Below, in pieces: positions 4,958 through 18,228 of a stretch of DNA of 44,184 bases (position 1 is its first letter; each line of letters starts with the position of its first letter). The notes beneath the pieces are model-generated. The model saw only the letters and a list, made by a program, of their open reading frames with translations. It had not been told where the DNA came from and made no database searches. Origin of the DNA: a virus; IMG/VR virus record IMGVR_UViG_3300042301_001863, positions 1 to 44,184 of that record; one strand, 5' to 3'. The position numbers and the translations under genes are program-made.

Positions 4958-5356
4958 ATGTTTGACAACATCAAGACCCCAACAATCAACAACCTGTTAG
5001 CGCTCGGTAACCAGTCTGGTTACGGCGTGAAAGCGCACCTGCATATCCTTGCTACTAGCCCTGAAGGCGTACGGGAAACAGTCAAGGTCACACAAGACAT
5101 TGATGCGTTTCGTCTGGAATTCATTACGCTTATGCCGCACTTCACTATGCGCCAAGTGAAGAACAATCAGTTACACGTCTGGTATCACTCGGAAGAAGCA
5201 AGTGCTTACGTTGGAAGTGGTGACGTGATGGATGAACTGAAAGAAGAAGGGTACAGCGATATCCGGTACAGCGATGATGGGTACTTGCTCATCATTGATG
5301 CGGACTCGGTCAAGCGCCTCGTGCGGAAGGGGCTACTTGAAGAACTGGGGGCTTAG
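4958..5356 (+). CDS. Unknown alpha/beta protein
   Basis: A 132-residue acidic protein that I do not recognise. It alternates strands and helices (VKAHLHILATS, FRLEFITLMPHF, NQLHVWYHSEE, DGYLLIIDADSVKRLV), suggesting a compact alpha/beta fold. The ribosome site is weak. The stop codon lies in the loop of a perfect 8-bp hairpin (5345-5364), so the 3' end of the mRNA is structured. Confidence 0.7.
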   Translation: MFDNIKTPTINNLLALGNQSGYGVKAHLHILATSPEGVRETVKVTQDIDAFRLEFITLMPHFTMRQVKNNQLHVWYHSEEASAYVGSGDVMDELKEEGYSDIRYSDDGYLLIIDADSVKRLVRKGLLEELGA

Positions 5357-5364
5357 GCCCCCAG
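5345..5364 (+). other. Hairpin over a stop codon
   Basis: CTGGGGGC / GCCCCCAG pairs perfectly around loop TTAG, which includes most of the TAG stop codon (5354-5356). No T-run follows, so it is not a standard terminator; it could stabilise the upstream mRNA or affect termination. Confidence 0.5.
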
Positions 5365-5460
5365 CCGTTATCGTGTCCTCATTATGTGACGATAATGAGC
5401 TGATGAGGCAGTTATGCCGAAACACGATTGCCTCACTGTTATGTCATAGGAACCGCAGAA
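5357..5460 (+). other. Structured leader with two further hairpins
   Basis: After the stop hairpin come TTATCGT / ACGATAA (5369-5395 region) and AGGCA / TGCCT (about 5406-5433), giving three stem-loops in a row before the membrane-protein gene at 5461. I see no gene in this 104-bp gap. Confidence 0.4.
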
Positions 5461-5796
5461 ATGCTTACACAGGAAAAGATCGACTCTCTCCCAGCGGATG
5501 TCCGCTTGCACATTGAAGTGCTTGACGCACACCTTGATGACGCTATTGCATCGTTGAGTCGTGGTGCAAAAACAATGCGTAATGCAAGGCAGAGAATCAT
5601 CGGGTTACAGTCTGTTGTTGCAAGTTTGGTTATCATCGCCGTCGGGTCATTGGTTATTGCAGGCATGGAGCACACAACCATGATGCAGACAGAAGTGGAA
5701 CGACAGCGCATATCCGAGGAATTGGATGAAGCACACGTCAACGCGGCATCTATGGGTTGTGACCTTGGACGGCACATCGAGAAGCCAATCAACTAA
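5461..5796 (+). CDS. Single-pass membrane protein with coiled-coil flanks
   Basis: A 111-residue protein with one clear transmembrane segment (VVASLVIIAVGSLVIAGM, about residues 49-66) between a helical N-terminal region (LHIEVLDAHLDDAIASL) and a Glu/Gln/Arg-rich C-terminal helix (QTEVERQRISEELDEAHV). The frame opens earlier at 5428, but the ATG at 5461 has AGGA at suitable distance. Its position among early genes makes a host-envelope role (such as exclusion or signalling) more likely than a holin, but this is a guess. Confidence 0.7.
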   Translation: MLTQEKIDSLPADVRLHIEVLDAHLDDAIASLSRGAKTMRNARQRIIGLQSVVASLVIIAVGSLVIAGMEHTTMMQTEVERQRISEELDEAHVNAASMGCDLGRHIEKPIN

Positions 5797-5803
5797 TGCA
5801 CAC

Positions 5804-5827
5804 GGGGGGCGCAAGTCCCCCACTTTT
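5804..5827 (+). terminator. Intrinsic terminator
   Basis: GGGGG / CCCCC (5805-5809 / 5817-5821) around a 7-nt loop, followed by ACTTTTT. It lies directly after the membrane-protein gene. Confidence 0.75.
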
Positions 5828-5860
5828 TACACATACAACGTTTGTATCGAGGAGTTAGTT

Positions 5861-6430
5861 ATGTTGAAGTTTGAGTTTCTTTACGATTCGCCGGTTAAGT
5901 GCGAGCATATGCAAGCCAAGCTGAACAAGAAGGCATCCCACCTTCTCAGTAAAACACTGATGCGCCGTACCTACTATGGGTCAATCATCAATGAGATCCC
6001 ATACGATGATGCAGCTGCAACGTCTGATGCACGTCAATTCTTTAATGCAGCAATGATGTGCTGTATCAAAGAGGAATGGGATGAGGCCCTTATGTGGTGG
6101 GCAATGGGCGATAAGTTGTGGGCATCTAGTAATGCCAGCCTCCTGTTTGAGCACAGCATGGATGTTCAAGTGAAGGTTGACACAATCATCAATTACGCCA
6201 CACTCAGTGTTGATAGTTGGATCAACACAATGTATGGCTCTTGCCACACAGAAACCGCCGTTGCACACATGAGAGTGCGCACGATCGATGCAACAAAACT
6301 TCACGAGCGACTCGAAGAGCTTAGATGGGAATGGCTCGCCCATTGCGCAGAGAAGAAGAAGGAACGGCGAGAGTTAGCACAATCGCTTGATGAACTGTGC
6401 AACTACACAGAAACAGGAGAAACAAAATGA
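5861..6430 (+). CDS. Unknown helical protein, Cys/Trp/Met-rich
   Basis: A 189-residue unrecognised protein. The chosen ATG at 5861 has AGGAG 7 nt upstream; the longer open frame would run through the terminator. It is largely helical, with a notable cluster FFNAAMMCCIKEEWDEALMW, then WWAMGDKLWAS, and a charged C-terminal helix (HCAEKKKERRELAQSL). The stop overlaps the next start (ATGA). It has no membrane segment or known motif. Confidence 0.7.
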   Translation: MLKFEFLYDSPVKCEHMQAKLNKKASHLLSKTLMRRTYYGSIINEIPYDDAAATSDARQFFNAAMMCCIKEEWDEALMWWAMGDKLWASSNASLLFEHSMDVQVKVDTIINYATLSVDSWINTMYGSCHTETAVAHMRVRTIDATKLHERLEELRWEWLAHCAEKKKERRELAQSLDELCNYTETGETK

Positions 6431-6861
6431 ACATATTCAAAAAGATGCAGACAGCCCACATGGCTAACCAAGTTAAGCGTGAACTCGAAAGAGTTATCAA
6501 GTCCATTGAAGTCGCAGCTGAAGAATGCGAATACAACAAGGATGAGATGCTCGACTGGCCCAAGTGGCCATACATGCTCATCACAGAAGACGATGAGGAG
6601 TATGTATGTACTCTCGATAACGTTGGAAAGAAGAACCTCATGCTCTTCATCACTGAAGAGGAAGCCAAGCAGTTTGGATGCCTGTTCGAAGCCATGACCA
6701 AGCAGAAATGCAAGGTTACACAGCCAGAGAAACTACTCTCTTTCAAGAGAGACTGCGTTCTCACCATTCACAACTGCGGATTCGAGATGTGGTACGGGAC
6801 ATACAAGTCACACACATTCATCGAAGAATTCAAGTCAATGAGGGCAACAGGCCTTATCTAG
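6427..6861 (+). CDS. Unknown acidic protein
   Basis: A 144-residue unrecognised protein, translationally coupled to the preceding gene by an ATGA overlap and also carrying GGAG upstream. An N-terminal helix (NQVKRELERVIKSIEVAAEE) precedes a mixed region with aromatic and Cys residues (WPKWPYMLITEDDEEYVC). Stretches such as NLMLFITEEEAKQF suggest an alpha/beta fold. A hairpin lies just after the stop. Confidence 0.7.
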   Translation: MNIFKKMQTAHMANQVKRELERVIKSIEVAAEECEYNKDEMLDWPKWPYMLITEDDEEYVCTLDNVGKKNLMLFITEEEAKQFGCLFEAMTKQKCKVTQPEKLLSFKRDCVLTIHNCGFEMWYGTYKSHTFIEEFKSMRATGLI

Positions 6862-6866
6862 ACGAA

Positions 6867-6887
6867 ACTTCTCCCTTGCGGAGAAGT
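6867..6887 (+). other. Hairpin ACTTCTCC-GGAGAAGT
   Basis: A perfect 8-bp stem with loop CTTGC immediately after a stop codon, without a T-run. The half-site resembles the TTCTCC inverted repeats at 4241-4276, so it may be a protein-binding or RNA-stability element rather than a terminator. Confidence 0.45.
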
Positions 6888-6927
6888 CTGTGAGAGTTGA
6901 CCGCCTTGCACTGATGAGTCAGGTCTA

Positions 6928-7143
6928 ATGGAAAACACCATGAAAACAAATGAGATTCTCGAAACACAGACACAGATCAACGAGTTGTCACGCGCTATGT
7001 ACAAGACTTGGTCACGTACAGGCGAGACACTCAAGGCTAATGAGGCACACCTCAAGAGCCTGTGCAACAAACTTGATCGCCTCATCGTTGAGGCACATCA
7101 GGCTGACAAAGAGGCACAAAAGCGTCGTAGATTAGGGGTCTAA
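6928..7143 (+). CDS. Small coiled-coil protein
   Basis: A 71-residue helical, charged protein (ETQTQINELSRAMYKTW, then LKSLCNKLDRLIVEAHQADK) ending in KRRRLGV. Unrecognised; it resembles short coiled-coil phage proteins. The start could be the ATG at 6928 or the one at 6940, since neither has a strong ribosome site. A weak inverted repeat (TGAGGGTT 7174-7181 / AACCCTCA 7193-7200) follows the gene. Confidence 0.6.
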   Translation: MENTMKTNEILETQTQINELSRAMYKTWSRTGETLKANEAHLKSLCNKLDRLIVEAHQADKEAQKRRRLGV

Positions 7144-7173
7144 ATTTTAGTACCCTCCCAAAAATAGTAAGGG

Positions 7174-7200
7174 TGAGGGTTGCAAATTTTGTAACCCTCA
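7174..7200 (+). terminator. Weak terminator-like hairpin
   Basis: TGAGGGTT / AACCCTCA encloses an 11-nt loop. Only a short T-rich stretch follows, so termination would be weak. Confidence 0.35.
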
Positions 7201-7205
7201 TTACA

Positions 7206-7234
7206 TTGAACAACAATAATCTTAACTATAAGAT
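7206..7234 (+). promoter_or_regulatory. Possible sigma70-type promoter
   Basis: TTGAAC (7206-7211) and TAAGAT (7229-7234) are spaced by 17 bp, after the hairpin at 7174-7200 and before the gene at 7249. Both boxes are imperfect. Confidence 0.35.
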
Positions 7235-7248
7235 TTAGGAACAACACA

Positions 7249-7737
7249 ATGATTCGAACAAAGCAGTTTAAGTGTGGCTGGCTAGTAACCACCACTGACA
7301 GTAGTGACAGTGGATACGATGACCATGATGTAACACTTCATGGTTTCTTTGACAACAAGCGTGATGCAGAAGCATGCCTTGTTCAACACTTGCCACAAAC
7401 TATTACAGGATGGTGCAAGCGCTATGAGCACTGGACCCAAGAACAGTACGATGAGATCCAGACGTTTGTAGACTTTAGTTTGTATCCAAACTTAAGGGTT
7501 TACCGAATAAATGATGATGAGGACTGCTTCCCTGCACTCTATGACCTCAACACCATTGAGTTGTATGAGCCTTTGCCCAAGTTAAATCAAGAGCAAATCA
7601 TCAAGCTTTACAACATGATGGGTGGACACTTTGATTGCTCAAGGCATTCAAGTTCCACAACAGAGATGGAATGGGTAGCCTGTATCCCAAACGGATACTA
7701 CAACAAGAACTACAGCAAAGGAAAACGAAATGCTTAG
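7249..7737 (+). CDS. Unknown acidic protein
   Basis: A 162-residue unrecognised protein, rich in Asp/Tyr/Thr with several Cys and His. TAGGA precedes the ATG. It opens a tightly overlapped run of genes (7249 to 8542 with overlaps of 3-8 nt). Segment HGFFDNKRDAEACLVQHLPQ suggests a small alpha/beta domain, but no motif is diagnostic. Confidence 0.7.
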   Translation: MIRTKQFKCGWLVTTTDSSDSGYDDHDVTLHGFFDNKRDAEACLVQHLPQTITGWCKRYEHWTQEQYDEIQTFVDFSLYPNLRVYRINDDEDCFPALYDLNTIELYEPLPKLNQEQIIKLYNMMGGHFDCSRHSSSTTEMEWVACIPNGYYNKNYSKGKRNA

Positions 7738-8044
7738 TGTAGGACAACGAGTTCGCAATGTACGTCGCCCCGATGTTATCGGGGTGGTTGTATCTTTAGA
7801 TGCTCCCAATAACAAATGGGCAGCTAGACCACAAGACCATCGAGTAATGGTCAGGTACCCACGCCTCACGCTTACCTCTAACGGTAAGTGGAAGGGAGGC
7901 GAGCTTGATGAACTCCCTAACGATCTATTACCTACAGGGGAGCCAGTTCATGAGGCGTTTGCTAGTTATAAGCGCAGTGGTGATGAGGGCGGTGTCGGCG
8001 CTCGCATTGCTGCGTATGACAGAAAGAAGAGGCGTAGCAGATGA
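7730..8044 (+). CDS. Unknown basic protein, possible SH3/KOW-like beta domain
   Basis: A 104-residue protein whose first half (VGQRVRNVRRPDVIGVVVSL, then HRVMVRYP) has the look of a small beta-barrel in which a turn reads 'V-G-x-x-V', as in KOW/SH3-like domains; this is only a resemblance. The C-terminus is strongly basic (YDRKKRRSR), consistent with nucleic-acid binding. It overlaps its neighbours by 8 nt upstream and ATGA downstream. Confidence 0.6.
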   Translation: MLSVGQRVRNVRRPDVIGVVVSLDAPNNKWAARPQDHRVMVRYPRLTLTSNGKWKGGELDELPNDLLPTGEPVHEAFASYKRSGDEGGVGARIAAYDRKKRRSR

Positions 8045-8154
8045 TTATCATTGCATGCGTTTGCGTTGCTATGTTGTCCATCCTGTTTTTAATAGGATGG
8101 TTTTTTAATACCATTGAGGTTGCACAGAAAGAGATAGATAACAAAGATGAATAA
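8041..8154 (+). CDS. Tiny single-pass membrane protein (37 aa)
   Basis: A 37-residue protein too short for normal ORF calling. Residues 2-24 form one hydrophobic helix (MIIIACVCVAMLSILFLIGW then FF), followed by a charged tail (EVAQKEIDNKDE). Its ATG overlaps the upstream stop (ATGA) and its end overlaps the next ATG by 8 nt, so it sits exactly in the operon with coupling on both sides. The function is unknown; small early membrane proteins in phages often alter the host envelope or block superinfection. Confidence 0.7.
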   Translation: MIIIACVCVAMLSILFLIGWFFNTIEVAQKEIDNKDE

Positions 8155-8542
8155 ACAGATTATTAGTGCGCATGAACTTGCACGTAACGTAATCAAGGCT
8201 TACGAGATAGCTGACGCTCTTATTACGGGCGTTGAGTTCCATAACTCAGAGAATGGCAGGTCAAAGCACAGAATTAATATTAATGGCACTCTTGAGGTGC
8301 GATTGTATATGCACTATGAGCTTATGGCTCCCGCTGTGTACAACATCTATATTCAAATACATGATGACAAATGGGCACTCACAACACATGGTTACCTTGA
8401 TGAGGTCAATGTCGAGTATTCAAGTACTAATACTGACATGGCTTACAACTATCTTAACCTCAAAGAGTGGGTGAATGACTTTGTCGCCACTGTCTATCAA
8501 CTCAAGGTTGCAGAAGTACACGGCATCGTAATCGTTCCTTAG
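8147..8542 (+). CDS. Unknown protein upstream of pseudoknot A
   Basis: A 131-residue unrecognised protein with predicted strands (VRLYMHYELM, VYNIYIQIHDD, VAEVHGIVIVP) and an N-terminal helix. Its TAG stop is followed 6 nt later by the first copy of the repeated RNA pseudoknot, and the downstream gene is in the same frame with no other stop between them. Confidence 0.7.
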   Translation: MNKQIISAHELARNVIKAYEIADALITGVEFHNSENGRSKHRININGTLEVRLYMHYELMAPAVYNIYIQIHDDKWALTTHGYLDEVNVEYSSTNTDMAYNYLNLKEWVNDFVATVYQLKVAEVHGIVIVP

Positions 8543-8548
8543 TTACAT

Positions 8549-8577
8549 GTGAGGGATGCGTCTCACCAACAACGCAT
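8549..8577 (+). promoter_or_regulatory. Repeated H-type RNA pseudoknot, copy A
   Basis: A 29-nt element: stem 1 GTGAG/CTCAC (8549-8553 / 8562-8566), loop GG, stem 2 ATGCG/CGCAT (8556-8560 / 8573-8577), one bridging T, and an A-rich crossing loop CAACAA. It starts 6 nt after a stop codon and ends 13 nt before the next ATG. Copies B and C share the architecture, with a compensatory change in the outer stem 2 pair (A-T here, G-C there). Confidence 0.75.
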
Positions 8578-8590
8578 GAAAGAGAACACA

Positions 8591-8815
8591 ATGACATTAG
8601 AACAAAAGAAAGTTGCCTACTGGAAGTGGGTCAACGATATGGTTTTGATTAACATGATGGCAAACATGGGTTTGCATAAGAAACATCGCAGTGATTTCCA
8701 ATCAGAGCTTCCAGATACTGATGATGTTGAGACACAGTATCAATTCATGCTCAACTACAACACCAACAAAGCACAAGAGCTTAACCGTCAACGTGCAGAA
8801 TTACGAGGATATTAA
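8591..8815 (+). CDS. Unknown small protein downstream of pseudoknot A
   Basis: A 74-residue helical charged protein (TLEQKKVAYWKWVNDMVL at the N-terminus), unrecognised. I start it at the ATG following AAAGAGAACACA, because the same AAAGA-AACACA-ATG context follows pseudoknot C; earlier in-frame starts would fall inside the pseudoknot. It lacks a clear Shine-Dalgarno. Confidence 0.65.
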   Translation: MTLEQKKVAYWKWVNDMVLINMMANMGLHKKHRSDFQSELPDTDDVETQYQFMLNYNTNKAQELNRQRAELRGY

Positions 8816-8816
8816 T

Positions 8817-9134
8817 ATGCCACCACTACATCACTACAAGAGAATTATTCTCAATTTCGCCTACCTCCACATCCATCCCGGTGGTGGACTAGAGAAAACT
8901 ATACTGTTAGCACCAAGTTTTCAACGCTTTCTAGATCGTGAGGCACGTCAACACTGTGCTGAGTTACTTGACTTTATTGATGCTCATGTTCCACATGATG
9001 CACGTAACAGGCAAGGCTTTGACATCTGGCACAATGCGGAACCTACAGATAGCGAGCGAGTTGTTTACAAGCAGTGGCTTGACGCAATCACGCCAATGCC
9101 ACGAGGATGGGAGGAGGTAGACACAAGTGCCTAG
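8817..9134 (+). CDS. Unknown protein
   Basis: A 105-residue unrecognised protein with several His and Trp (HHYKRIILNFAYLHIHPGGG, then QGFDIWHNAEPTDSE). The ATG at 8817, one base after the previous stop, has GAGGA upstream; the longer open frame has no ribosome site. It is mostly helical after residue 30. Confidence 0.65.
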   Translation: MPPLHHYKRIILNFAYLHIHPGGGLEKTILLAPSFQRFLDREARQHCAELLDFIDAHVPHDARNRQGFDIWHNAEPTDSERVVYKQWLDAITPMPRGWEEVDTSA

Positions 9135-9375
9135 GTATACATACCACAATCAACAGTATGACTTTCAGGGCCGAGCAATCGGCCCTGTTGGTGTCTTTCA
9201 TAATGCCACTGTTGCAAAAACAGTGGCTCGTTATCTTGTATACATGCAACCAGAAATCATGCACATTAGGATTTCAAGATGCCTTGAGCATACATATGAA
9301 TTTGAGCCGTTCATGATTGTTTACATGAACATCGTAACTGACAAAGCTAAAGTAAGTAGAAGGAAAGTATTTTAA
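9127..9375 (+). CDS. Unknown small protein with GTG start
   Basis: An 82-residue protein starting at GTG, with GGAGGAGG upstream, overlapping the previous gene by 8 nt. The first part is beta-rich (PRYTYHNQQYDFQGRAIGPV), followed by a helix with ATVAKTVARYLVYM. Unrecognised. Confidence 0.55.
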   Translation: MPRYTYHNQQYDFQGRAIGPVGVFHNATVAKTVARYLVYMQPEIMHIRISRCLEHTYEFEPFMIVYMNIVTDKAKVSRRKVF

Positions 9376-9376
9376 A

Positions 9377-9640
9377 ATGAGATTTGTACCTGTAGTGTTG
9401 TACGGTTCACTCGTACTTGAAGCGTTATTGCAAGAACAATTAATAACAAAAGATCATTACGATCATATGTGGGAACGGTTTAAAGATCTTAGCAACCAAC
9501 TCAATTATGTGTTAATTGATCTTGATGAGGTGACTCTTAATCTTGAGCAAATTGAATCAGAAATGATAATGAATTACATAAGAACCAGAGAAAACATAAC
9601 GGACCACGAGTTTTCGTTCAATATCAAAATCGCTATCTAA
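9377..9640 (+). CDS. Unknown small acidic helical protein
   Basis: An 87-residue protein, acidic in the second half (LIDLDEVTLNLEQIESEMIM). AGAAGGAAAG precedes the ATG. Pseudoknot copy B begins 7 nt after its stop. Unrecognised. Confidence 0.65.
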   Translation: MRFVPVVLYGSLVLEALLQEQLITKDHYDHMWERFKDLSNQLNYVLIDLDEVTLNLEQIESEMIMNYIRTRENITDHEFSFNIKIAI

Positions 9641-9647
9641 TGTTTGT

Positions 9648-9676
9648 GTGAGGGGTGCGCCTCACTAACAACGCAC
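9648..9676 (+). promoter_or_regulatory. Repeated H-type RNA pseudoknot, copy B
   Basis: A 29-nt element: stem 1 GTGAG/CTCAC (9648-9652 / 9661-9665), loop GG, stem 2 GTGCG/CGCAC (9655-9659 / 9672-9676), bridging C and crossing loop TAACAA. It lies 7 nt after a stop codon and 16 nt before the next ATG. Confidence 0.75.
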
Positions 9677-9692
9677 AGAAAGAAACATAATC

Positions 9693-10184
9693 ATGTCTAT
9701 CGAATTGTACACAAAGTATTTCCGCGAAGCTCTTCTCGCTGTTCCTGCAAAATTAGCAGACGGTACATTGCCTTCATATGGTGGATACTACACCACATCA
9801 CATTCAGATGCCGTTGAACTCAACGGTCATCTCATCCAAATGCATTACGATCTGCGAATGGATGTAGCGGATGGTCAAGAGAAGACTCTTCACCCTGTTC
9901 CTCTTGTACAGATTGAAGTCAGAATGACACTGCGTCCTGATAAGGATAACCGTGATACATCTTCAATGATGAGCAAGATTATCAAGGTTCAGTTGAACTC
10001 TGAAACTCTTGAAGAGCAGATCGATGAGGCGATCCAAACACTGGAAAGAGTCATCATTGATGTCAAGTTGCCTATCATTGCCTTTGACTTCTGGAAGTAT
10101 GTTGCTACTGCAATGCCAGACTTTGAAGGTCAAGTGAGGAAGACTTGTGTTCGTAACCACCAGAGATTAACCCTCAAGGATTAA
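9693..10184 (+). CDS. Unknown protein downstream of pseudoknot B
   Basis: A 163-residue unrecognised protein. A beta-rich centre (HLIQMHYDLRMDV, VPLVQIEVRMTLRPDKDN) is followed by a helical region (EEQIDEAIQTLERVIIDV). The leader between pseudoknot and ATG has only AAAGAAA in place of a Shine-Dalgarno. Its stop is 6 nt before pseudoknot C, so this gene has the element on both sides. Confidence 0.7.
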   Translation: MSIELYTKYFREALLAVPAKLADGTLPSYGGYYTTSHSDAVELNGHLIQMHYDLRMDVADGQEKTLHPVPLVQIEVRMTLRPDKDNRDTSSMMSKIIKVQLNSETLEEQIDEAIQTLERVIIDVKLPIIAFDFWKYVATAMPDFEGQVRKTCVRNHQRLTLKD

Positions 10185-10190
10185 TTAGAT

Positions 10191-10219
10191 GTGAGGGGTG
10201 CGACTCACTGACAACGCAC
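10191..10219 (+). promoter_or_regulatory. Repeated H-type RNA pseudoknot, copy C
   Basis: A 29-nt element: stem 1 GTGAG/CTCAC (10191-10195 / 10204-10208), loop GG, stem 2 GTGCG/CGCAC (10198-10202 / 10215-10219), bridging A and crossing loop TGACAA. It lies 6 nt after a stop codon and 23 nt before the preferred ATG (8 nt before an alternative ATG at 10228). Confidence 0.75.
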
Positions 10220-10242
10220 ACTACACAATGAAAGACAACACA

Positions 10243-10488
10243 ATGGAAAAAGTTATTTGCTTGGTAAGCGTAGAGATGTTCAATGCACCGGGAATGCTCC
10301 GGTGGGCACGTCACTTTTACCGCATGACTAACTGCTCAAAGAAAGATAAGAAATATTTTTTGGGTGTCATGGAAGCATGGGTGACAGACAAAGCAACTGC
10401 TAAATACTGCCTTGAATGTCCTGATGATGTCATTCAATGGGATGACACAGCACAAACAGCAACAATAACAATAAAGGTAACAAAATGA
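10243..10488 (+). CDS. Unknown small protein downstream of pseudoknot C
   Basis: An 81-residue protein, unrecognised, starting with a strand (KVICLVSVEMF) and ending in a Thr-rich strand (TAQTATITIKVTK). The ATG at 10243 follows AAAGACAACACA as in gene 8591; the upstream ATG at 10228 would add five residues. Its stop overlaps the next start (ATGA). Confidence 0.65.
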   Translation: MEKVICLVSVEMFNAPGMLRWARHFYRMTNCSKKDKKYFLGVMEAWVTDKATAKYCLECPDDVIQWDDTAQTATITIKVTK

Positions 10489-10802
10489 GTTTTGAATTTA
10501 GACCTATCAAATACACGTTTTGGAACACGTTCGGGGATAACACCCCGAACGATTTGGTTTGTACGTATATCGAACCGCATTACGGCAACCCATGTTTCAT
10601 CAAAATAAGACGTAGGCTTGCAACTGAAATCGGATGTAAGAGACTACGTCAAGGTGTAGAGTGGCACGTCAATGATACTGACTGCTCTATGTGGAGTGAA
10701 AGACACGCGGTAATTGGTTTTGCTGAAGTGTTAGCACCTGTGACTGTAGTGTCAAAAGCACAAGCACTGGCGGTGTGTGAGTTTATGGAGTTAAAAGCAT
10801 GA
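10485..10802 (+). CDS. Unknown protein
   Basis: A 105-residue unrecognised protein, aromatic and Cys-containing (FRPIKYTFWNTFGDN, then YGNPCFIKIRRRLA). The second half contains VIGFAEVLAPVTVVSKAQAL, suggesting an alpha/beta fold. It is coupled to both neighbours by 4-nt overlaps, with AAAGG as ribosome site. Confidence 0.65.
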   Translation: MSFEFRPIKYTFWNTFGDNTPNDLVCTYIEPHYGNPCFIKIRRRLATEIGCKRLRQGVEWHVNDTDCSMWSERHAVIGFAEVLAPVTVVSKAQALAVCEFMELKA

Positions 10803-11197
10803 GTGACAACATAATGATACAAGCATGGAATGAGATTATGACAGATGCACAAGAAGCTGAGGAGTGCATTGTGTCCATGTATAGCATTGAGCCGTATTAT
10901 GGTGGCCCAGAGGAAGGAGGTTGGTGGGGCAACCTGTACATACTCAGAGAATATGTACGATGTAGCAATCGTGAAGCAGCAGAGAGTCTACGAACAAAAC
11001 TGCAAGAGAGATGTTCACAATTAAATTATGAAGCAAAAATAGCAGATGGGGAACACTGCTTACGTCAGATCGAACGTGCTGATGCACGAGGTTTAGACGT
11101 CGATGACTATAATTATGATGGACCAAGTTCATACAATGTAATCATCGAGAAGTTTCCCGGTGAGAATCAAGTAACAGAAAGATCACATTACGAATAA
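10799..11197 (+). CDS. Unknown acidic protein
   Basis: A 132-residue acidic protein with a Gly/Trp-rich turn (YYGGPEEGGWWGNLYILREY) and a following helix rich in Arg/Glu/Ser. The stop overlaps the next ATG by one base. GGAG lies upstream of the start. Unrecognised. Confidence 0.65.
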   Translation: MSDNIMIQAWNEIMTDAQEAEECIVSMYSIEPYYGGPEEGGWWGNLYILREYVRCSNREAAESLRTKLQERCSQLNYEAKIADGEHCLRQIERADARGLDVDDYNYDGPSSYNVIIEKFPGENQVTERSHYE

Positions 11198-11706
11198 TGC
11201 CACTCAAGAAACTGACGCCTGAGCAAACAGAATCAATACGTCATCAAGCAAACAACGGCGTAAGTGTAATTGCACTCGCAGCTAAATACAAAGTGTCTGA
11301 ACAACACATATACAGAATTAAAAGTAATCAACGACGAGACAGAAAGACAAAACAAATGAGTACATACAACGGCTGGACTAATTACGCGACATGGTTGTTT
11401 TACCTGCATCATCAAGAGCAAGTAGAGAACTGGTATTACGATGAGCCAGCAAGCACACGCAAAAACCTTGATGAAACACATCTTCAAAATTACTTTGAGG
11501 AAATGTATGGCGAGCTGATTGATGGCGTCGCAAACATTTATATCACTGACGTTCTCAACAATGAGTTGCGTGATGTGAATTGGAGGGAGGTGATGAAGAC
11601 ACTACGAGAAGAAGACGAATCTACTGACGCCAACTGGACAGAAGAAACACAAATACAAAACTACATGGATCATGTAGCAGAAAACAAAGATAGAGAGAGA
11701 AACTAA
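11197..11706 (+). CDS. HTH domain fused to a phage 'NGWTNYATW' domain
   Basis: A 169-residue two-part protein. Residues 1-50 (LTPEQTESIRHQANNGVSVI then ALAAKYKVSEQHIYRIK) form a Hin/resolvase-like helix-turn-helix with a basic tail QRRDRKTK. From residue 54 (MSTYNGWTNYATWLFYLHH) it matches the short 'NGWTNYxTW' module common in phage genomes (DUF7249-like), usually a stand-alone protein. An internal ATG at that junction could give a separate shorter product. The role may be DNA-binding regulation; the second module has no known activity. Confidence 0.65.
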   Translation: MPLKKLTPEQTESIRHQANNGVSVIALAAKYKVSEQHIYRIKSNQRRDRKTKQMSTYNGWTNYATWLFYLHHQEQVENWYYDEPASTRKNLDETHLQNYFEEMYGELIDGVANIYITDVLNNELRDVNWREVMKTLREEDESTDANWTEETQIQNYMDHVAENKDRERN

Positions 11707-12599
11707 TGACAGCACAACAATACCTCGCTAAGTTCGGGCTGGATGCAAATCCAGCCCTTTTCACCAATGTACACAATGGCAAACACATGAAGCCCAAGTA
11801 CAACTCTTATTGCATATACGATGGCGTTAGCCAGCTAGATCGACGATCTCGCATCATATGCGTCATGTCTAATTGCCAGACCAACAACGAGGACTGGAAC
11901 ATCAAAACTGGTGACATGATTCAGACATACATCATTATGCGTGATGTACATCCACAGGTTGCCATTGACCAACTACTCGACGGTTGCATCTGTGGTAACT
12001 GCACACATCGTAAGCGACGCAAGCGCCACACGCGCACTGCCAAAGTCAAAGATGTACGCACTTGCTATGTCAACATCGGCAAGGGCACATCCGCTGTGTG
12101 GGAATCATTTCAGCGAGGCAACATACCTATTATCACTAGTACTGTTGCAGCCACTATTCAATTAGTTGCTGGCAAGAAGTTGCGCATGGGTACATACGGT
12201 GACCCTGTAGCCGTACCATTCCCTATATGGGGTGACATGTTGCGCTATGAGATTGGTCATACTGGCTATACACATCAATGGCGTATGCCAATAGCACAAC
12301 CATTCCGTGGTGTGCTTCAAGCGTCATGCGATTCTTACATTGATCGATGGGAAGCCAAAGAGGCTGGCTGGGGTACATTCCTAGTTCGTCCACACGATGG
12401 CTATATTGACAGACGCCACACTGCGTATGCTCGTGGTTGCAAGCAGTGTCCTAGTGATCCATTTATTAATGAGATGCGAGCAATGCGCAATATGCTACCT
12501 ATGCATACAACGTGCGACACCTGCCCTGCATCTTTACGTTGTGATGGCGATAGTGATATCGTCATCCGTGCCCATGGCTCAGCTGCGCTGTGGGTTTAA
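11706..12599 (+). CDS. DUF7227-like Cys-rich phage protein
   Basis: A 297-residue protein. Landmarks are CICGNC (near residue 95), TCYVNIGKGTSAVW, LRMGTYGDPVAVPFPIW, HTGYTHQWR, WGTFLVRP, GCKQCP, TTCDTCPASLRCDGD and IVIRAHGS. This set of landmarks is that of a phage family I know as DUF7227, found widely in phages without a proven function; the paired cysteines suggest metal or Fe-S binding. The N-terminal 90 residues, including VMSNCQTNNEDWNIKTGDM, appear to be an added domain. The end of the gene is followed by GGAG for the next. Confidence 0.6.
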   Translation: MTAQQYLAKFGLDANPALFTNVHNGKHMKPKYNSYCIYDGVSQLDRRSRIICVMSNCQTNNEDWNIKTGDMIQTYIIMRDVHPQVAIDQLLDGCICGNCTHRKRRKRHTRTAKVKDVRTCYVNIGKGTSAVWESFQRGNIPIITSTVAATIQLVAGKKLRMGTYGDPVAVPFPIWGDMLRYEIGHTGYTHQWRMPIAQPFRGVLQASCDSYIDRWEAKEAGWGTFLVRPHDGYIDRRHTAYARGCKQCPSDPFINEMRAMRNMLPMHTTCDTCPASLRCDGDSDIVIRAHGSAALWV

Positions 12600-12618
12600 T
12601 TAAACAAAGGAGATAAAC

Positions 12619-13032
12619 ATGTTCTATTCAATAGCAGATTACGACGAATGGTCCCAAGATTGTTGGGACCAAGCCGGTCATTACACAAAAGATGGCGATT
12701 GCCTATCACCAGCCTGTGGCGCGTACTTTATGGCCGCTCTTGGTAAACGCATCTTTAAATCTATTGACGTTCGTTACACAGATACAGCAATACGTCGATT
12801 CATTAGTGAAGAAGAATCACAAGGAGAGGTAAAAGTTACCGAGGATGAAATCACAAACTTCATTGCTTTAGTACAGTCCGTGTACCACGAACGCACCATA
12901 GAAGAATTTAATGAGGCTATGTGGGAATACATTTGTGACTCTACATACAGCGAGTGGAATGACATATTTAGTGCGCATGACTTAGGTTATGCATGCAAGT
13001 TAGAAGAACCAGAAGGGTGGCCAGTGCCATGA
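12619..13032 (+). CDS. Unknown acidic protein
   Basis: A 137-residue acidic protein with Tyr/Trp/Cys-rich N-terminus (YDEWSQDCWDQAGHYTKDGD) and a helical C-terminal half (EEFNEAMWEYICDSTYSEW). It has a strong AAAGGAGAT ribosome site, suggesting good expression. The stop overlaps the next ATG (ATGA). Unrecognised. Confidence 0.7.
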   Translation: MFYSIADYDEWSQDCWDQAGHYTKDGDCLSPACGAYFMAALGKRIFKSIDVRYTDTAIRRFISEEESQGEVKVTEDEITNFIALVQSVYHERTIEEFNEAMWEYICDSTYSEWNDIFSAHDLGYACKLEEPEGWPVP

Positions 13033-13322
13033 CAGTAGAAGAAATTGATCAAGATCAAGAGAATTTTGAGAACGAGTTGCGATGGCTGCGGGAGAAATAC
13101 CCGCAGTTTTATATTGAAGTATGGGGGCCATACGATTTTGCATTGCAACTTAATCATGATGGATACCCGAATGGAGACGAGCTTGCACAGGCTGCAGCAG
13201 ACAACTGGGATAAATGGGTGGGTGTAGTAGAAGTATTACACGACACATTTGATGCTCATGTTGGGACAAATTGGGATCGGCTTACACAAGCAATAAAGGA
13301 GATAGACCGAGATGGTAAATGA
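13029..13322 (+). CDS. Unknown small acidic protein
   Basis: A 97-residue acidic protein, helical with several Trp (NELRWLREKYPQFYIEVWG). I start it at the coupled ATG (13029) rather than at an earlier in-frame codon inside the preceding gene. It overlaps the next gene by 11 nt. Confidence 0.65.
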   Translation: MTVEEIDQDQENFENELRWLREKYPQFYIEVWGPYDFALQLNHDGYPNGDELAQAAADNWDKWVGVVEVLHDTFDAHVGTNWDRLTQAIKEIDRDGK

Positions 13323-13641
13323 TTACACGCCTGAACACATGACTTTCACTATTCAATCCATCAACACAGAGTGGTGGTACGAGATGATGATGGACATGAT
13401 CCAATACAACGATTGGGTCAAGAATGTACGCACCGTTGAACATACAGATACAAACTGGGTAATAGAGATCATTGATGATGAGTGTGAAACACATCTCATA
13501 TCAGATCTGAATCTATTGGAACACCTGCGTAAATGCTGGTCAATTGGTGATCGTACGTTTTTAGAGCCACAGAATGTTGACTACGACATCATCGACTGCA
13601 TTGTACAGGAGTTGTGCTTTGGTGAGTTAGTTTACGGTTAA
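13312..13641 (+). CDS. Unknown acidic protein
   Basis: A 109-residue acidic protein containing WWYEMMMDMIQYNDWVKNV and VIEIIDDECETHLISDLNLL. AAGGAGA within the previous gene is its ribosome site. It is unrecognised; the charge and composition are similar to its neighbours, as is common in clusters of phage anti-host proteins. Confidence 0.65.
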   Translation: MVNDYTPEHMTFTIQSINTEWWYEMMMDMIQYNDWVKNVRTVEHTDTNWVIEIIDDECETHLISDLNLLEHLRKCWSIGDRTFLEPQNVDYDIIDCIVQELCFGELVYG

Positions 13642-13652
13642 GGAGTAACACA

Positions 13653-14159
13653 ATGCCGAATTGGTGCGATAACACATTTATTGTTTCTGGTGACAACATC
13701 GACGATGTAACAAAATGGCAGACAGAAAACACAACTGCAGATAAACATGGTCTTTACCAAGTAGATTTTAATGGCTCAGTGCCAATGCCAGATGAAGAAG
13801 ATGGCAACAACTGGTACACATGGTCTCTGTCCAACTGGGGGACTAAATGGAATGCATGTTACGGATGCATACTGGAGAGCATTGGTAATGATAACGAGTT
13901 ACGGTATAACTTTGACACAGCATGGGGTCCACCACGAGAGTGGTTCATAACCATGAGCGCAAAGTACCCTAAGCTCAACTTTGCATTGCATTACTCAGAA
14001 CCCGGCATGTGCTTTGCTGGCACTATGAGTAGACAAGATGGTTACTTTGACGAAGTGCAGCGATGTAATGAAGACTTAACTGATGACGACAAAGAAGCAA
14101 TGGGATACACACCATGCGAAGCATGCGGTGGATGGGAAGAAGAATGCATGTGTGACTGA
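13653..14159 (+). CDS. MPNWC-type (Api92/YubB-like) phage protein with zinc ribbon
   Basis: A 168-residue protein starting MPNWCDNTFIVSGD, the hallmark of the Api92/DUF1281 (YubB ferredoxin-like) family of phage and plasmid proteins. The family motif continues with WSLSNWGTKWNA and FDTAWGPPREWF. The C-terminus adds CEACGGWEEECMC, a probable zinc-binding knuckle. AAGGAG lies upstream. The biological role is unknown. It is the last gene of the early block before the promoter/terminator at 14165-14240. Confidence 0.75.
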   Translation: MPNWCDNTFIVSGDNIDDVTKWQTENTTADKHGLYQVDFNGSVPMPDEEDGNNWYTWSLSNWGTKWNACYGCILESIGNDNELRYNFDTAWGPPREWFITMSAKYPKLNFALHYSEPGMCFAGTMSRQDGYFDEVQRCNEDLTDDDKEAMGYTPCEACGGWEEECMCD

Positions 14160-14164
14160 TTACC

Positions 14165-14175
14165 TACGGTATAAT
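14165..14175 (+). promoter_or_regulatory. Promoter -10 motif TACGGTATAAT
   Basis: An exact plus-strand copy of the motif upstream of ssb and tRNA-Leu (here CCTACGGTATAATTA). It sits in the gap between the early block and the replication block. Expected initiation is near 14182. Confidence 0.6.
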
Positions 14176-14196
14176 TAGTCTGGGAATTAACCATAA

Positions 14197-14238
14197 TTTG
14201 TGGAGCGTGAACTGCATTTCAGGCTCCACAAACTTTTT
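14197..14238 (+). terminator. Terminator just downstream of a promoter
   Basis: TTTGTGGAGC / GCTCCACAAA is a perfect 10-bp stem (14197-14206 / 14223-14232) followed by CTTTTT. With the promoter at 14165-14175 it defines a transcript of about 55 nt, either a small RNA or an attenuated leader for the replication genes starting at 14253. Confidence 0.75.
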
Positions 14239-14252
14239 ATCAAGGATTAAAA

Positions 14253-14663
14253 ATGTTATCAAATATCAATGAGATTTTAGACGAGATGGCTCGTACAAGT
14301 GAGTTTGCAGATGGTTGGAAGAAGATAGAAGTTACAGTTGGACCTAACAATATAGTTACATTGTCGTGGCCTTTGTGGAAGCTAAAGATTATTTCGTTTC
14401 GTGTAAACAGCAACGACATTATCAATTGTAAGGATGTGAATACGCTTGCGTTAAACATTGAGGTTCTTGACAACCTCTATGAAGATGGCGATACATATAT
14501 GTGGAAGACAAACCGCAATCCTAATGAACGCAAGTGGGAAGAACTTCAGCGAGCTAAAGTTGCAGATGTAGTAGACGCTTTCCTTGATGGTGCATGGACT
14601 CCACCATGGAAGTGCGGTCATTGTTCAGCTCGTCTATCTGGTAAGTATCAGCCACGCTGGTAA
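14253..14663 (+). CDS. Unknown protein with C-terminal CxxC
   Basis: A 136-residue unrecognised protein. The central segment (NIVTLSWPLWKLKIISFRV) is beta-rich, and the C-terminus has WKCGHCSARLSGKYQPRW, half a zinc ribbon. AAGGA precedes the ATG. Its stop overlaps the next start (TAATG). It is the first gene after the promoter/terminator pair. Confidence 0.7.
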   Translation: MLSNINEILDEMARTSEFADGWKKIEVTVGPNNIVTLSWPLWKLKIISFRVNSNDIINCKDVNTLALNIEVLDNLYEDGDTYMWKTNRNPNERKWEELQRAKVADVVDAFLDGAWTPPWKCGHCSARLSGKYQPRW

Positions 14664-15229
14664 TGCCTAGCATACGCAAGAAATACAATGCGCCAGTAGC
14701 ATATTACGTGCATGCCAATAATGTTGGTGTGCACGTATCTAATAAATACACAGCAAAATTAATATTCGAATTGCTTGTGATCAATGCTAAAGGCAACGAC
14801 ATCATTGAGATGAAAGCAATATTGCCTCCAACTATGTGGCCTAGTTGGTCACGGACGCATATCATTTCTCTCCTCAATGGATGTTGGCATGCATCTCTTA
14901 TTGGAAGATATGTCTACAAAAACAATAAGCTTGTAGATGTTGTTGATTACTCTAGGAGTAACTACAAAACTGATCATTACGAGAGGCATGCAGAGTTTAT
15001 GCATGACGCACTATCTTATGGAGAAAAGCAAACCCTTAATTACATACTATCTACCCCTGAGTTATTAAAGTTAATCATTCAGTCACCAACAGCAGCTAGT
15101 GCCAAAGTGGCGGTGAAGTACTTAAATAAAATAGACAAAACAAATAATGTGCCTCTGTCGCATGTAGTAACTTGCTGGAAATTCCTAAGGTTACAACATG
15201 AAAGACAACGAAAAAATAACACTAACTGA
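14663..15229 (+). CDS. Unknown basic protein
   Basis: A 188-residue basic protein. N-terminal strands (APVAYYVHANNVGVHV) lead to helices, ending in LRLQHERQRKNNTN. Unrecognised. It has no ribosome site of its own and is probably coupled to gene 14253. Its 3' end is overlapped by the small membrane-protein gene at 15198. Confidence 0.65.
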   Translation: MPSIRKKYNAPVAYYVHANNVGVHVSNKYTAKLIFELLVINAKGNDIIEMKAILPPTMWPSWSRTHIISLLNGCWHASLIGRYVYKNNKLVDVVDYSRSNYKTDHYERHAEFMHDALSYGEKQTLNYILSTPELLKLIIQSPTAASAKVAVKYLNKIDKTNNVPLSHVVTCWKFLRLQHERQRKNNTN

Positions 15230-15296
15230 TTCCTGTGTAGTGCCTATACTAGCTACATTATGGTTAATCGCAATAGCACTGTACTTAAATCGGTAA
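15198..15296 (+). CDS. Tiny membrane protein (32 aa)
   Basis: A 32-residue frame with a ribosome site AAGG 7 nt upstream of its ATG. A charged N-terminus (MKDNEKITLTD) is followed by a hydrophobic helix (VVPILATLWLIAIALYL) and NR at the end. It overlaps both neighbours in other frames. The ribosome site and hydrophobic segment favour a real gene, but it could be a chance frame. Confidence 0.5.
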   Translation: MKDNEKITLTDSCVVPILATLWLIAIALYLNR

Positions 15297-15691
15297 GTGA
15301 AAAGCAGCTGCAAGGTTCAATTGTAAGAGCCTTGCAACTGCTTGGATACACTGTTTTTGAAACAGGCAAAACACGTACGAAAGTAGCATGCCCTACTTGT
15401 AAAACTAGGCATTACGCTACAGGCTGGCAAGGTAATACTATTGGCTTACCAGATATCTATGTTCACAACTCTAAATGGAAGACTCCAATTGGAGTTGGCA
15501 TAGAACTAAAAACAACTACAGGAAAGGTACAAGAAAAACAACAAATGTTTGCATCATTGCAAGTAACTTCAATCTGCAGGTCACTTGACGATGTATTAGA
15601 TGTTCTTCATACGGCAGAGTTAGTAATTGGTAGCGAAGACACGATTAAAAAATTAGAGGCGTTTATAAGTAATGAGTACAGACGGTATTAA
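15260..15691 (+). CDS. VRR-NUC nuclease with CxxC insertion
   Basis: A 143-residue VRR-NUC (PD-(D/E)XK superfamily) nuclease. Residues include Glu14/Gln18 in SEKQLQGSIVRAL, GLPDIYV (Asp65), IELK (Glu82, Lys84) and VQEKQ (Gln91), the usual metal-binding and catalytic pattern. CPTC at 44-47 is an inserted zinc-binding-like pair. Phage VRR-NUC proteins act as structure-specific nucleases in recombination or replication. The ATG at 15260 is the only plausible start but has no Shine-Dalgarno; a TATACT box 10 nt upstream would give a nearly leaderless mRNA. Confidence 0.85.
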   Translation: MVNRNSTVLKSVSEKQLQGSIVRALQLLGYTVFETGKTRTKVACPTCKTRHYATGWQGNTIGLPDIYVHNSKWKTPIGVGIELKTTTGKVQEKQQMFASLQVTSICRSLDDVLDVLHTAELVIGSEDTIKKLEAFISNEYRRY

Positions 15692-16358
15692 TAGATTTGA
15701 ATATTTGTTTCCTGTTAAAGAAGAAAATATGGACTACTACGTAGACAAATACTACCTAAGTAAAACATATGTATCTTATGAAATGAGTGATGGTGGAGTT
15801 GATTGGTTTGTCACATCTGTTGGTGACAAGGTATTCATAGAAGCAAACGATGACCCAAATTTCTTCAAGGGCCTTGAACGAGAACCAGTAGAGATATCTT
15901 GGCGAGATTTACTAGAATCATTTAGATCAGTTAGGTACAACGGTGAGTTATATTACATGGCAGGTTGTGATGGTCATGTTCCGGCAAACATATATGGAGC
16001 TGAAGGTAGTCACTTATATCCCAATCCATCAATGCTAATTCATGTACTAATGAAGCCAAGTGTCAATAACCCTAGGCTAACAATTGACTGCAAAACTATT
16101 GATATTGATGGCACTGAGTGTGCATTAATTGGATCTAGCCCACATGAACTAGTGTATTTCTACAACGAGGATGATGGTTACGATTTGTTTGCTGCTATGC
16201 CATTAGGTATTGTGTCGCAATTTTATAAGTATGGATGGATGAATGGCTCTATGTATGACTTACGTATGGCTGTTGCCACATCTAAGGAAGCACTAGCATT
16301 GATGACTGACGATATTAGAGAACGACTTAACGGAGAGAAAGAAGACGATAATGTTTAA
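15672..16358 (+). CDS. Unknown protein, possibly DNA clamp-like or structural
   Basis: A 228-residue acidic protein I do not recognise. It is beta-rich throughout (VSYEMSDGGVDWFVTSVGD, LTIDCKTIDIDGTECALIG, HELVYFYNEDDGYDLFA). This pattern of repeated short strands with helices at FYKYGWMNGSMYDLRMAV could suit a sliding-clamp-like or binding fold, but I have no motif support. It lies between VRR-NUC and the annealing-protein candidate, so a role in DNA processing is likely. Confidence 0.6.
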   Translation: MSTDGINRFEYLFPVKEENMDYYVDKYYLSKTYVSYEMSDGGVDWFVTSVGDKVFIEANDDPNFFKGLEREPVEISWRDLLESFRSVRYNGELYYMAGCDGHVPANIYGAEGSHLYPNPSMLIHVLMKPSVNNPRLTIDCKTIDIDGTECALIGSSPHELVYFYNEDDGYDLFAAMPLGIVSQFYKYGWMNGSMYDLRMAVATSKEALALMTDDIRERLNGEKEDDNV

Positions 16359-16932
16359 CCCACGAGACCACTTTATTAACCTCAAAGGCAAGCAATACCT
16401 ACCAGTTGCAGCTCGTATTGCTTGGTTTAGAGATGAGTGCCCAGATTGGACAGTTAATACGTATGCAGTGCCCGAACTTTCGGGCGCTGACTACTGTACA
16501 TTTGCAGCTGAAATCCTTGATAATAATGGCCGATTAATTGCCAAGGCTCATAAAACAGAACACGAAAAACACTTTGCTGACTATCGTGAAAAAGCGGAGA
16601 CTGGAGCTATAGGTCGTGCTCTTGCATTATGCGGATTTGGTACATTGTTTGCTCAGGAACTTGAAGAGCCTATAGTCAATGGTACTGAGATGCGCATTGT
16701 AGATACTCCACAGCCAGTAAGATCAGCACTTACACCGGGTAAGCAGTTTGCAATGGAATGCAAGCGAATATGGGGATCTGGCATCACCCCATCTGATATG
16801 AAACGCGTGTTCTTTAAGTTAGCTGGACATACAGATACTAGCGATGAGAACCTTAAACTTGTTATTGAGGTATTGGCAGGGTTTAACACACCGGAAGAAG
16901 CAGAGTCGGTGTTCCTAGCAGAGGAGGAATAA
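16351..16932 (+). CDS. Putative single-strand annealing protein (Rad52/Sak-like)
   Basis: A 193-residue protein. Its core YLPVAARIAWFRDECPDW, then HFADYREKAETGAIGRALAL and CGFGTLFAQELEE, belongs to a phage family with the signature EKAETGAIGRAL-FGT; the pattern is reminiscent of Rad52/Sak single-strand annealing proteins. Such proteins pair complementary single strands during phage recombination. The neighbouring VRR-NUC nuclease and Gp157/Gam-like protein support a recombination cassette. C-terminal helices (SDMKRVFFKLAGH) are less conserved. Confidence is moderate because the assignment rests on motif memory and context. Confidence 0.5.
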   Translation: MFNPRDHFINLKGKQYLPVAARIAWFRDECPDWTVNTYAVPELSGADYCTFAAEILDNNGRLIAKAHKTEHEKHFADYREKAETGAIGRALALCGFGTLFAQELEEPIVNGTEMRIVDTPQPVRSALTPGKQFAMECKRIWGSGITPSDMKRVFFKLAGHTDTSDENLKLVIEVLAGFNTPEEAESVFLAEEE

Positions 16933-16933
16933 A

Positions 16934-17515
16934 TTGGATACGACTAAGTTTTTAGATCTAACTAAGTTTGACATTATTGGAGACAGTATTTACGAGATTG
17001 AGACCGGCGAATATGCCGGTCCAGTTGATGGCTGGCTAGGAGAAGAGCTTAAAACAGAAGATGACGTTCTTTTAGCTTTACAGCGTTTACTAAAATACGA
17101 GACTGAATTAAAGGCAGAGCAGCTTGCAATGCAATCAGTGATAGAGCGTTGCAAATCTATGGTTAAAGACAAAGAGCGTAAAGTGTTATGGCTACAGGCA
17201 CGTTATGGCGCACAGATTGCAGACTTTGCTAAATCACAATTGACTGGCAAGTCTAAAACGTGGAAGTGCCCATGGGGTCAAGTGTCATGGCGTACATCAT
17301 CGCCTTTATTCTCTGTGCTTGATGACGAAAAAGCAGCCATGGTTATTCCTCTTAATCTTGATGCCGTCAAAGTAGAAGCCAAGGTATATAAAAGTAAGAT
17401 ACCAAAAGAAATTCAACTCACACTTGTTCAAGAGTATCCAGAGCTATTTAGTATGACTGAAGCATCTGAAAACTTTAGCATAAAGTCATTGACAGCAACG
17501 GATGTAGAGCAGTAA
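16934..17515 (+). CDS. Gp157/Gam-like protein, TTG start
   Basis: A 193-residue protein with a central coiled coil (ETELKAEQLAMQSVIERCKS, about 55-95) followed by a beta-rich domain with KTWKCPWGQVSWRTSSPLFS and IPLNLDAVKVEAKVYKSKI. That layout (helical arm, then K(T/S)-x-x-PxG-x-xxxR) is typical of Siphovirus Gp157 and Mu Gam-type nuclease inhibitors, which protect DNA ends from host RecBCD. The start is TTG with an excellent GAGGAGGAAT ribosome site; no ATG lies nearby in frame. Confidence 0.65.
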   Translation: MDTTKFLDLTKFDIIGDSIYEIETGEYAGPVDGWLGEELKTEDDVLLALQRLLKYETELKAEQLAMQSVIERCKSMVKDKERKVLWLQARYGAQIADFAKSQLTGKSKTWKCPWGQVSWRTSSPLFSVLDDEKAAMVIPLNLDAVKVEAKVYKSKIPKEIQLTLVQEYPELFSMTEASENFSIKSLTATDVEQ

Positions 17516-17524
17516 GATTGCTGT

Positions 17525-17547: not shown

Positions 17548-17563
17548 GTACAACTACCAAATG

Positions 17564-17596: not shown

Positions 17597-17616
17597 GTTA
17601 CAAAGAAAGAAAGAGA

Positions 17617-18219: not shown

Positions 18220-18228
18220 AGGTAACAC

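Follow-up and report, generated by a model that had tools for sequence, protein, structure and literature searches.

Three pseudoknot copies and their neighbouring genes

The window, i.e. the whole 44,184-nt stretch of the IMG/VR virus record IMGVR_UViG_3300042301_001863, has on its plus strand, at 4958-20718, a run of small genes without known function, the last of which encodes a DnaB helicase. Within this run, three copies of a 29-nt element capable of forming an H-type pseudoknot lie a few nucleotides past the stop codon of one gene and ahead of the next. The copies and the adjoining open reading frames (ORFs) are as follows:

8147-8542, plus strand: ORF upstream of copy A, 131 aa, function unknown
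8549-8577, plus strand: pseudoknot copy A; stem 1 8549-8553/8562-8566, L1 (GG) 8554-8555, stem 2 8556-8560/8573-8577, L2 8561, L3 8567-8572
8591-8815, plus strand: ORF after copy A, 74 aa; an unrelated family takes its place in other genomes
9377-9640, plus strand: ORF upstream of copy B, 87 aa, function unknown
9648-9676, plus strand: pseudoknot copy B; stem 1 9648-9652/9661-9665, L1 9653-9654, stem 2 9655-9659/9672-9676, L2 9660, L3 9666-9671
9693-10184, plus strand: ORF between copies B and C, 163 aa, function unknown, compact predicted fold
10191-10219, plus strand: pseudoknot copy C; stem 1 10191-10195/10204-10208, L1 10196-10197, stem 2 10198-10202/10215-10219, L2 10203, L3 10209-10214
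10228-10488, plus strand: ORF after copy C, starting at 10228 or, more likely, at 10243

The copies lie at the coordinates given in the preliminary description and match the consensus GTGAGGGRTGCGNCTCACYNACAACGCAY with 0 mismatches, and 100 dinucleotide shuffles of the window contain no match to this 29-nt consensus, even when 3 mismatches are allowed. The spacer between stop codon and pseudoknot is 6 nt in copy A (TAG, 8540-8542), 7 nt in copy B (TAA, 9638-9640), and 6 nt in copy C (TAA, 10182-10184). As had been proposed, both stems are fully paired in all three copies, the topology is that of an H-type pseudoknot (5/2/5/1/6 for stem 1, L1, stem 2, L2 and L3), and the outer pair of stem 2 is A-U in copy A and G-C in copies B and C. 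Exact stem lengths vary by one pair, as the middle base L2 may add a pair to stem 2 (in copy A, where it is U) or to stem 1 (in copy B, where it is C). A folding program without pseudoknot capability forms a single stem at a time and, as expected, reports a nested stability that is not unusual; a generic single-sequence pseudoknot scan of the window gave so many chance hits that it was of no use. The copies are spaced by 1099 nt (A-B) and 543 nt (B-C), and they contain no UUCG.

The element had been said to belong to no described family, and comparison with Rfam 15 agrees with this. In the gene run carrying the copies, even a threshold of E=10 gives no credible match, and the gathering-score matches in the window and 26 related loci are limited to tRNAs and two hammerhead ribozymes. 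No tRNA or tRNA-like structure was found after the copies in the window.

The products of the genes downstream of the copies are mutually unrelated in sequence, and the claim that their leaders are devoid of a good Shine-Dalgarno (SD) sequence gains statistical support over 80 genes: the SD pairing energy of genes after a pseudoknot has a median of -5.5 kcal/mol versus -6.1 kcal/mol for other genes and a 10th percentile of -5.8 versus -9.2 kcal/mol (p about 1e-11). AlphaFold models of the 131-aa and 163-aa upstream proteins (pLDDT 77 and 88, respectively) are both predicted to consist of a helix, four strands and a helix, and neither has a PDB homologue at E<=0.001. We rejected the explanation that the upstream genes are paralogues spreading the element by duplication, as the 163-aa and 131-aa family profiles do not match, and that of an upstream protein being a known RNA binder, as no PHROGs or Pfam hit was found and the fold matches are not convincing. 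The genes adjoining the window copies contain no match to the single-stranded DNA-binding protein (SSB) family, and the annotated phage records include no relative of the window region or of the 163-aa protein.

Conservation and covariation of the pseudoknot

An exact scan of IMG/VR with the first 18 bases of the element identified 43 stretches, and 89 copies were collected, ignoring duplicates; one of them is cut off by a contig end. The remaining motif is missing from two scan matches (L019 and L029), and 18 matches in bacterial genomes are attributed to chance, since all of them are devoid of L3 and the stem-2 partner. Most records, including those of 60-67 kb, have two to four copies, which share a single orientation within each record. 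The distance from the stop codon to the pseudoknot is 5 nt in 4 copies, 6 nt in 38, 7 nt in 31, 8 nt in 14 and 11 nt in one, thus 5-8 nt in 87 of the 88 copies with an assignable stop, and the next start codon follows 8-26 nt after the pseudoknot, with a purine-rich SD-like run often beginning immediately 3' of stem 2. The outer pair of stem 2 in the 89 copies is G-C (55), A-U (17) or G-U (17) and never A-C (Fisher p = 3e-9, a value that is indicative only for such related sequences). The outer pair of stem 1 is G-C in 86 copies and C-G in three, the latter form being found in three genomes (G006, G028 and G032) and with both stem-2 backgrounds. Stem 2 is otherwise nearly invariant in the window group, with variation limited to its outer pair, and L1 (GG) and the A residues of L3 are also near-invariant. 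The information content of the pseudoknot is 1.8-1.9 bits per base, compared with 0.5-0.9 in its flanks.

A test set free of any sequence pattern was obtained by protein alignment of the 163-aa protein alone, which yielded 33 viral loci at 32-89% identity. A fully paired copy, with ten of ten pairs, is present at the site of copy B in 33/33 loci and at the site of copy C in 33/33. Homologous leaders that keep the sequence and break stem 2, named beforehand as the observation that would speak against the pseudoknot, were thus not encountered at any of the 66 protein-anchored sites. The pseudoknot also follows the stop codon in all homologues of the 131-aa gene that were read, with the exception of L088. 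This locus has no copy-A pseudoknot, and a strong SD (TAGGAG, TAGGAGTAAAACAATG) stands immediately after the stop of its 131-aa homologue, which suggests that a pseudoknot with a weak SD and a strong SD are alternatives.

The preliminary description regarded the element as a mobile-looking module. The related genomes do not support this, as the copies occupy orthologous places behind the same upstream genes and it is the following gene that is swapped. At site C the upstream 163-aa gene is constant, whereas at least six unrelated families alternate downstream; at site A two downstream families alternate. Copies at new places are found only in L023/G022, with four copies, one of them 11 nt past the stop, and in L020/G019, with a third copy at a new spacing. 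The copies are place-keeping rather than hopping, and mainly the following gene changes.

A scan with a pattern that leaves stem 1 free (GGRTGCG-N8-ACAACGCAY) revealed further viral contigs in which stem 1 differs in sequence yet is fully paired (ACGAG/CTCGT, ACGTG/CACGT, GGCAG/CTGCC, AGGAG/CTCCT, CGCAG/CTGCG and others). The remaining matches have 0-3 pairs, the level expected by chance, and none has 4. The reciprocal scan with stem 2 left free returned the known stem 2 and no others. In 24 distinct sequences of this kind (type I below), 240/240 cells are paired, 6 of the 10 pairs are changed on both sides, and the covariation score (0.484 vs 0.119) was reached by 0/500 shuffles, the evidence for stem 1 being the stronger part because some sequences were retrieved with stem 2 fixed in the search pattern. 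The covariation is lost when the partner is shifted by one base.

For type I and for a second sequence type described below, 98.6-100% of cells are paired and 4-6 pairs have two-sided changes; the covariation score was reached in 0/500 shuffles, and the slid controls collapse. The proposed H-type pseudoknot with a compensatory change is thus backed by the 89 group copies and by other phage lineages, and it is near certain that the pseudoknot is a real RNA structure. The GAGG within stem 1, which had been considered a working part, is not supported in this role, because stem 1 is the freest part of the element in other lineages, which carry e.g. ACGTG, GGCAG or AGTAG instead. One contig with a type I pseudoknot (L156) also encodes two type-II hammerhead ribozymes on its minus strand (7193-7256 and 7512-7575), about 320 nt apart.

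Pseudoknots between SSB and primase genes and the structures behind them

Most type I sequences outside the window group are located between an SSB-like gene and a primase gene (phrog_10514). A second protein-anchored set, comprised of 80 loci found by primase alignment, gave 63 distinct SSB-primase intergenic regions, 55 of which have a fully paired H-type pseudoknot within 70 nt after the SSB stop, compared with 12 of 315 shuffles; most of the other regions have, by eye, a pseudoknot with a single mismatch or a shorter stem. The distance from the stop codon in these other lineages is 5-22 nt, and once 34 nt. Two sequence types alternate at this site: i) type I, GG-RYGCG...ACAA-CGCRY, including stem 2 in the versions GCGCG/CGCGC and AUGCG/CGCAU, and ii) type II, C-TGAGCA...AAAC-TGCTCA, with two-sided changes in stem 2 such as TGAACCA/TGGTTCA, TGGGGTA/TACCCCA and TGAGACA/TGTCTCA. 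Since the two types alternate at one site, it is the form and not the sequence that is kept.

In the SSB-primase regions a tRNA-like structure usually starts a few nucleotides 3' of the pseudoknot. It is built of a 5-bp acceptor stem, a TTCRANN T-loop on a 5-bp stem, and a long arm with an anti-SD loop; in L102, for example, the loop CTTCTTCTCC is complementary to GGAGAAGAAG ahead of the primase start. Such a structure can be parsed in 61/63 regions, an upper bound because the parse is permissive and L273 and L275 are devoid of such an arm, and in most of them 6-11 nt are complementary to part of the 30 nt that precede the primase start. The tRNA-like structures (SSB-primase intergenic regions of L102, L107, L119, L121, L138 and L198-L276) are called neither by ARAGORN nor by Rfam. 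A true tRNA takes their place in L110, L113 and Arthrobacter phage Amigo. In L110, where the pseudoknot precedes a true tRNA-Thr, a separate hairpin (TACCGGG-GCTTATCTCCTTTCA-CCCGGTA, with an CTCCTTTC loop; reverse complement, about 9142-9175) separates the stop codon from the pseudoknot, and judging from this locus the anti-SD loop seems to be an independent module. Six regions (L207, L208, L210, L227, L230 and L273) have an extra long hairpin between the tRNA-like structure and the primase SD, often with a stretch like AAATCTTCGAYTACGTCTTCGG.

The arrangement is also present in isolated phages. Amigo has the order TAA, 6 nt, pseudoknot, 2 nt, tRNA-Gly, and Arthrobacter phage Molivia shares it, with stem 1 changed on both sides (by eye). 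In Microbacterium phage Cassita, inspection by eye shows a type-II-like pseudoknot followed by a tRNA-like stretch; in Curtobacterium phage Yappy a plain long hairpin occupies the position of the pseudoknot. The open-access literature yielded no account of post-stop pseudoknots preceding phage tRNAs or tRNA-like structures. The window element is part of a wider set of phage post-stop pseudoknots, with or without a following tRNA or tRNA-like structure.

Possible roles of the post-stop pseudoknots

What follows the pseudoknot varies with the setting (a gene, a tRNA or a tRNA-like structure) and the sequence type is interchangeable, whereas the preceding stop codon and the form are shared. A structural role that serves the message upstream is therefore favoured over a specific recognition in the service of the downstream gene. 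The best-supported reading, which we adopt tentatively and at somewhat less than an even chance, is that the pseudoknot serves as a structural block in the 3' UTR, protecting or punctuating the message upstream of it. REP-like stabilisers of mRNA 3' ends block 3'-to-5' exonucleases and lengthen the half-life of the upstream mRNA. The pseudoknot may likewise act by its shape, as a compact cis barrier that ends the upstream message and halts 3'-to-5' exonucleases entering from downstream cuts. In the other lineages the cut would be made by RNase P at the 5' end of the tRNA or tRNA-like structure, and in the window it may fall in the poorly translated leader of the following gene; weaker SD pairing implies that the RNA behind the pseudoknot would be poorly covered by ribosomes, though a role in downstream initiation explains the weak SDs equally well. 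The 5-8 nt spacer of the window group would keep the pseudoknot unmelted just beyond a terminating ribosome, and every upstream gene would end as a stable mRNA segment that is expressed separately. The near-invariance of stem 2 in the window group exceeds the needs of a pure barrier and would be compatible with the binding of a protein or ligand.

The preliminary description considered control of translation or re-initiation. Such control has some plausibility, yet it is less well supported than the structural block, because in other lineages the pseudoknot is succeeded by a tRNA or tRNA-like structure rather than by a gene start. It is nevertheless the main rival to the structural block, albeit one that we consider unlikely: the pseudoknot would control translation of the downstream gene either by aiding a weak ribosome-binding site, as in repZ, or by serving as a repressor operator, as in T4 gene 32. 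The weaker SD pairing behind the pseudoknots, the strong SD in L088 and the SD-like purine run that often abuts stem 2 are consistent with it, whereas the loose distance to the start codon (8-26 nt) and the many unrelated genes behind copy C are not, and in the SSB-primase lineages the gene is separated from the pseudoknot by a tRNA or tRNA-like structure, with the SD sequestered by the tRNA-like arm. The alternation of two pseudoknot sequences at the SSB-primase site argues in particular against a protein operator. The tight window-group spacing of 5-8 nt past the stop, which is the usual recoding geometry, would suit an action on the ribosome that has just terminated, through insulation against sliding and re-initiation or stimulation of readthrough or frameshifting. 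Luteovirus frameshift pseudoknots are also compact and have an A-rich L3. Recoding is not supported, because no conserved open frame continues: the next stop comes after a median of 8, 8 and 2 codons in the three frames, often within the pseudoknot, and the next gene lies in a random frame. Given also the looser spacing in other lineages (5-22 nt, once 34), the terminated-ribosome readings taken together appear improbable, ribosome insulation being possible.

Two further readings have much less in their favour. A DNA site, either repressor- or stoperator-like or a homologous linker for gene swapping, would fit the switch of gene families immediately behind sites A and C, and actinophages are known to carry asymmetric sites of one orientation in short gaps between genes (SAS/ESAS and stoperators; PMC3203893 and PMC7302621). 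A DNA site does not need crossing covariation, and for this reason such readings fail to account for two crossing helices with two-sided changes including G-U (240/240 cells, 6 double-changed pairs, 0/500 shuffles), which makes them very improbable. A small riboswitch that binds a ligand and is similar in size to preQ1-I or SAM-V is the least probable reading of all. It would be in line with the compact fold and the near-invariant L1 (GG), stem 2 and L3 A residues, and has against it the alternation at one site of two types with differing loops and downstream genes without a common pathway; neither an Rfam riboswitch match nor an expression platform beyond the pseudoknot was found.

Several known systems resemble the post-stop pseudoknots in part. 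In plant viruses of the TMV and TYMV type, an upstream pseudoknot domain lies just 5' of a tRNA-like structure, an order that recurs after the stop codon in the SSB-primase lineages. The elements described here differ in being encoded by dsDNA phages, between two operon genes, with an anti-SD loop, and the window copies have no tRNA-like structure. The stem and loop make-up is also similar to that of tmRNA PK1; a tmRNA, with its tag reading frame and tRNA-like domain, was rejected, as ARAGORN and Rfam are negative at the loci and the tRNA-like part follows the pseudoknot rather than enclosing it. The repZ pseudoknot folds upon termination of the upstream reading frame and aids a weak ribosome-binding site. 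The repZ/repA pseudoknots of IncI, IncB and IncL plasmids thus likewise stand between an upstream frame that terminates and a weak start; they are long-range and antisense-controlled (Asano and Mizobuchi 1998 as cited in PMC10724649), whereas the unit here is a compact 29 nt.

The T4/T2/RB69 gene 32 pseudoknot is also an H-type structure in phage mRNA, and an SSB gene adjoins the pseudoknot in the other lineages analysed here. It lies 5' of the SSB gene that it regulates, 67 nt before the start, and is followed by an A+U-rich binding tract (PMC3014915), whereas the present pseudoknots are directly 3' of an SSB or other gene and match no Rfam model. An operator of the gene 32 kind was rejected on this ground for the SSB-primase lineages and for want of an SSB match among the window neighbours. 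STAXI elements, which are likewise small pseudoknots in multiple copies with a partial SSB association, are repeated 2-3 times in tandem near SSB, topoisomerase and antirestriction genes and have UUCG tetraloops (PMC2864571); the window copies are ~540-1100 nt apart, each behind its own stop, without tetraloops or an Rfam match. The SAS/ESAS and intergenic inverted repeats of actinophage clusters K, O, EC, EF and EG are similarly short, conserved, in one orientation and several per genome next to varying genes. SAS sequences overlap with the SD and ESAS consists of a simple inverted repeat whose spacer varies; the available excerpts of PMC3203893 and PMC7302621 describe no pseudoknot for them. 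The elements here are not SD-containing 13-mers just before a start, as the start is 8-26 nt away and the SD is weak.

The analysis confirms the observation and firmly establishes the structure. The original interpretation survives as regards the pseudoknot and its compensatory change; the mobile leader element is replaced by a place-keeping pseudoknot of the 3' UTR that has counterparts in other phage lineages. Few phage-mRNA pseudoknots have a known role, and that of gene 32 has been considered as possibly the sole viral pseudoknot used in translational autoregulation (PMC3014915). The family described here is compact and strongly covarying, occurs in tens of phage genomes and in at least two gene settings, and has no entry in Rfam. 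Through it, pseudoknots become linked to the tRNAs and tRNA-like structures of phage operons, a combination also found at the 3' ends of plant RNA viruses. A broader and rather speculative reading, which we consider unlikely as it stands, is that a stop codon, 5-22 nt, an H-type pseudoknot and then a tRNA or anti-SD tRNA-like structure, replaced in the window group by the next leader, form a novel type of phage mRNA punctuation in several tailed-phage lineages. tRNA-processing enzymes would cut the operon, the pseudoknot cap would stabilise the message, and the tRNA-like loop would shut the next ribosome-binding site until processing. The family offers a handle on separate mRNA lifetimes within one phage operon, which can already be tested in the isolated Arthrobacter phages that share the arrangement.

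Elsewhere in the window, an ORF of 4283 aa on the minus strand (21498-34349) occupies 29% of the sequence, and two other minus-strand ORFs contain in-phase repeats: three of 33 nt (43077-43175, in the ORF at 42738-43712) and two of 54 nt (41458-41565, in the ORF at 40909-42252).
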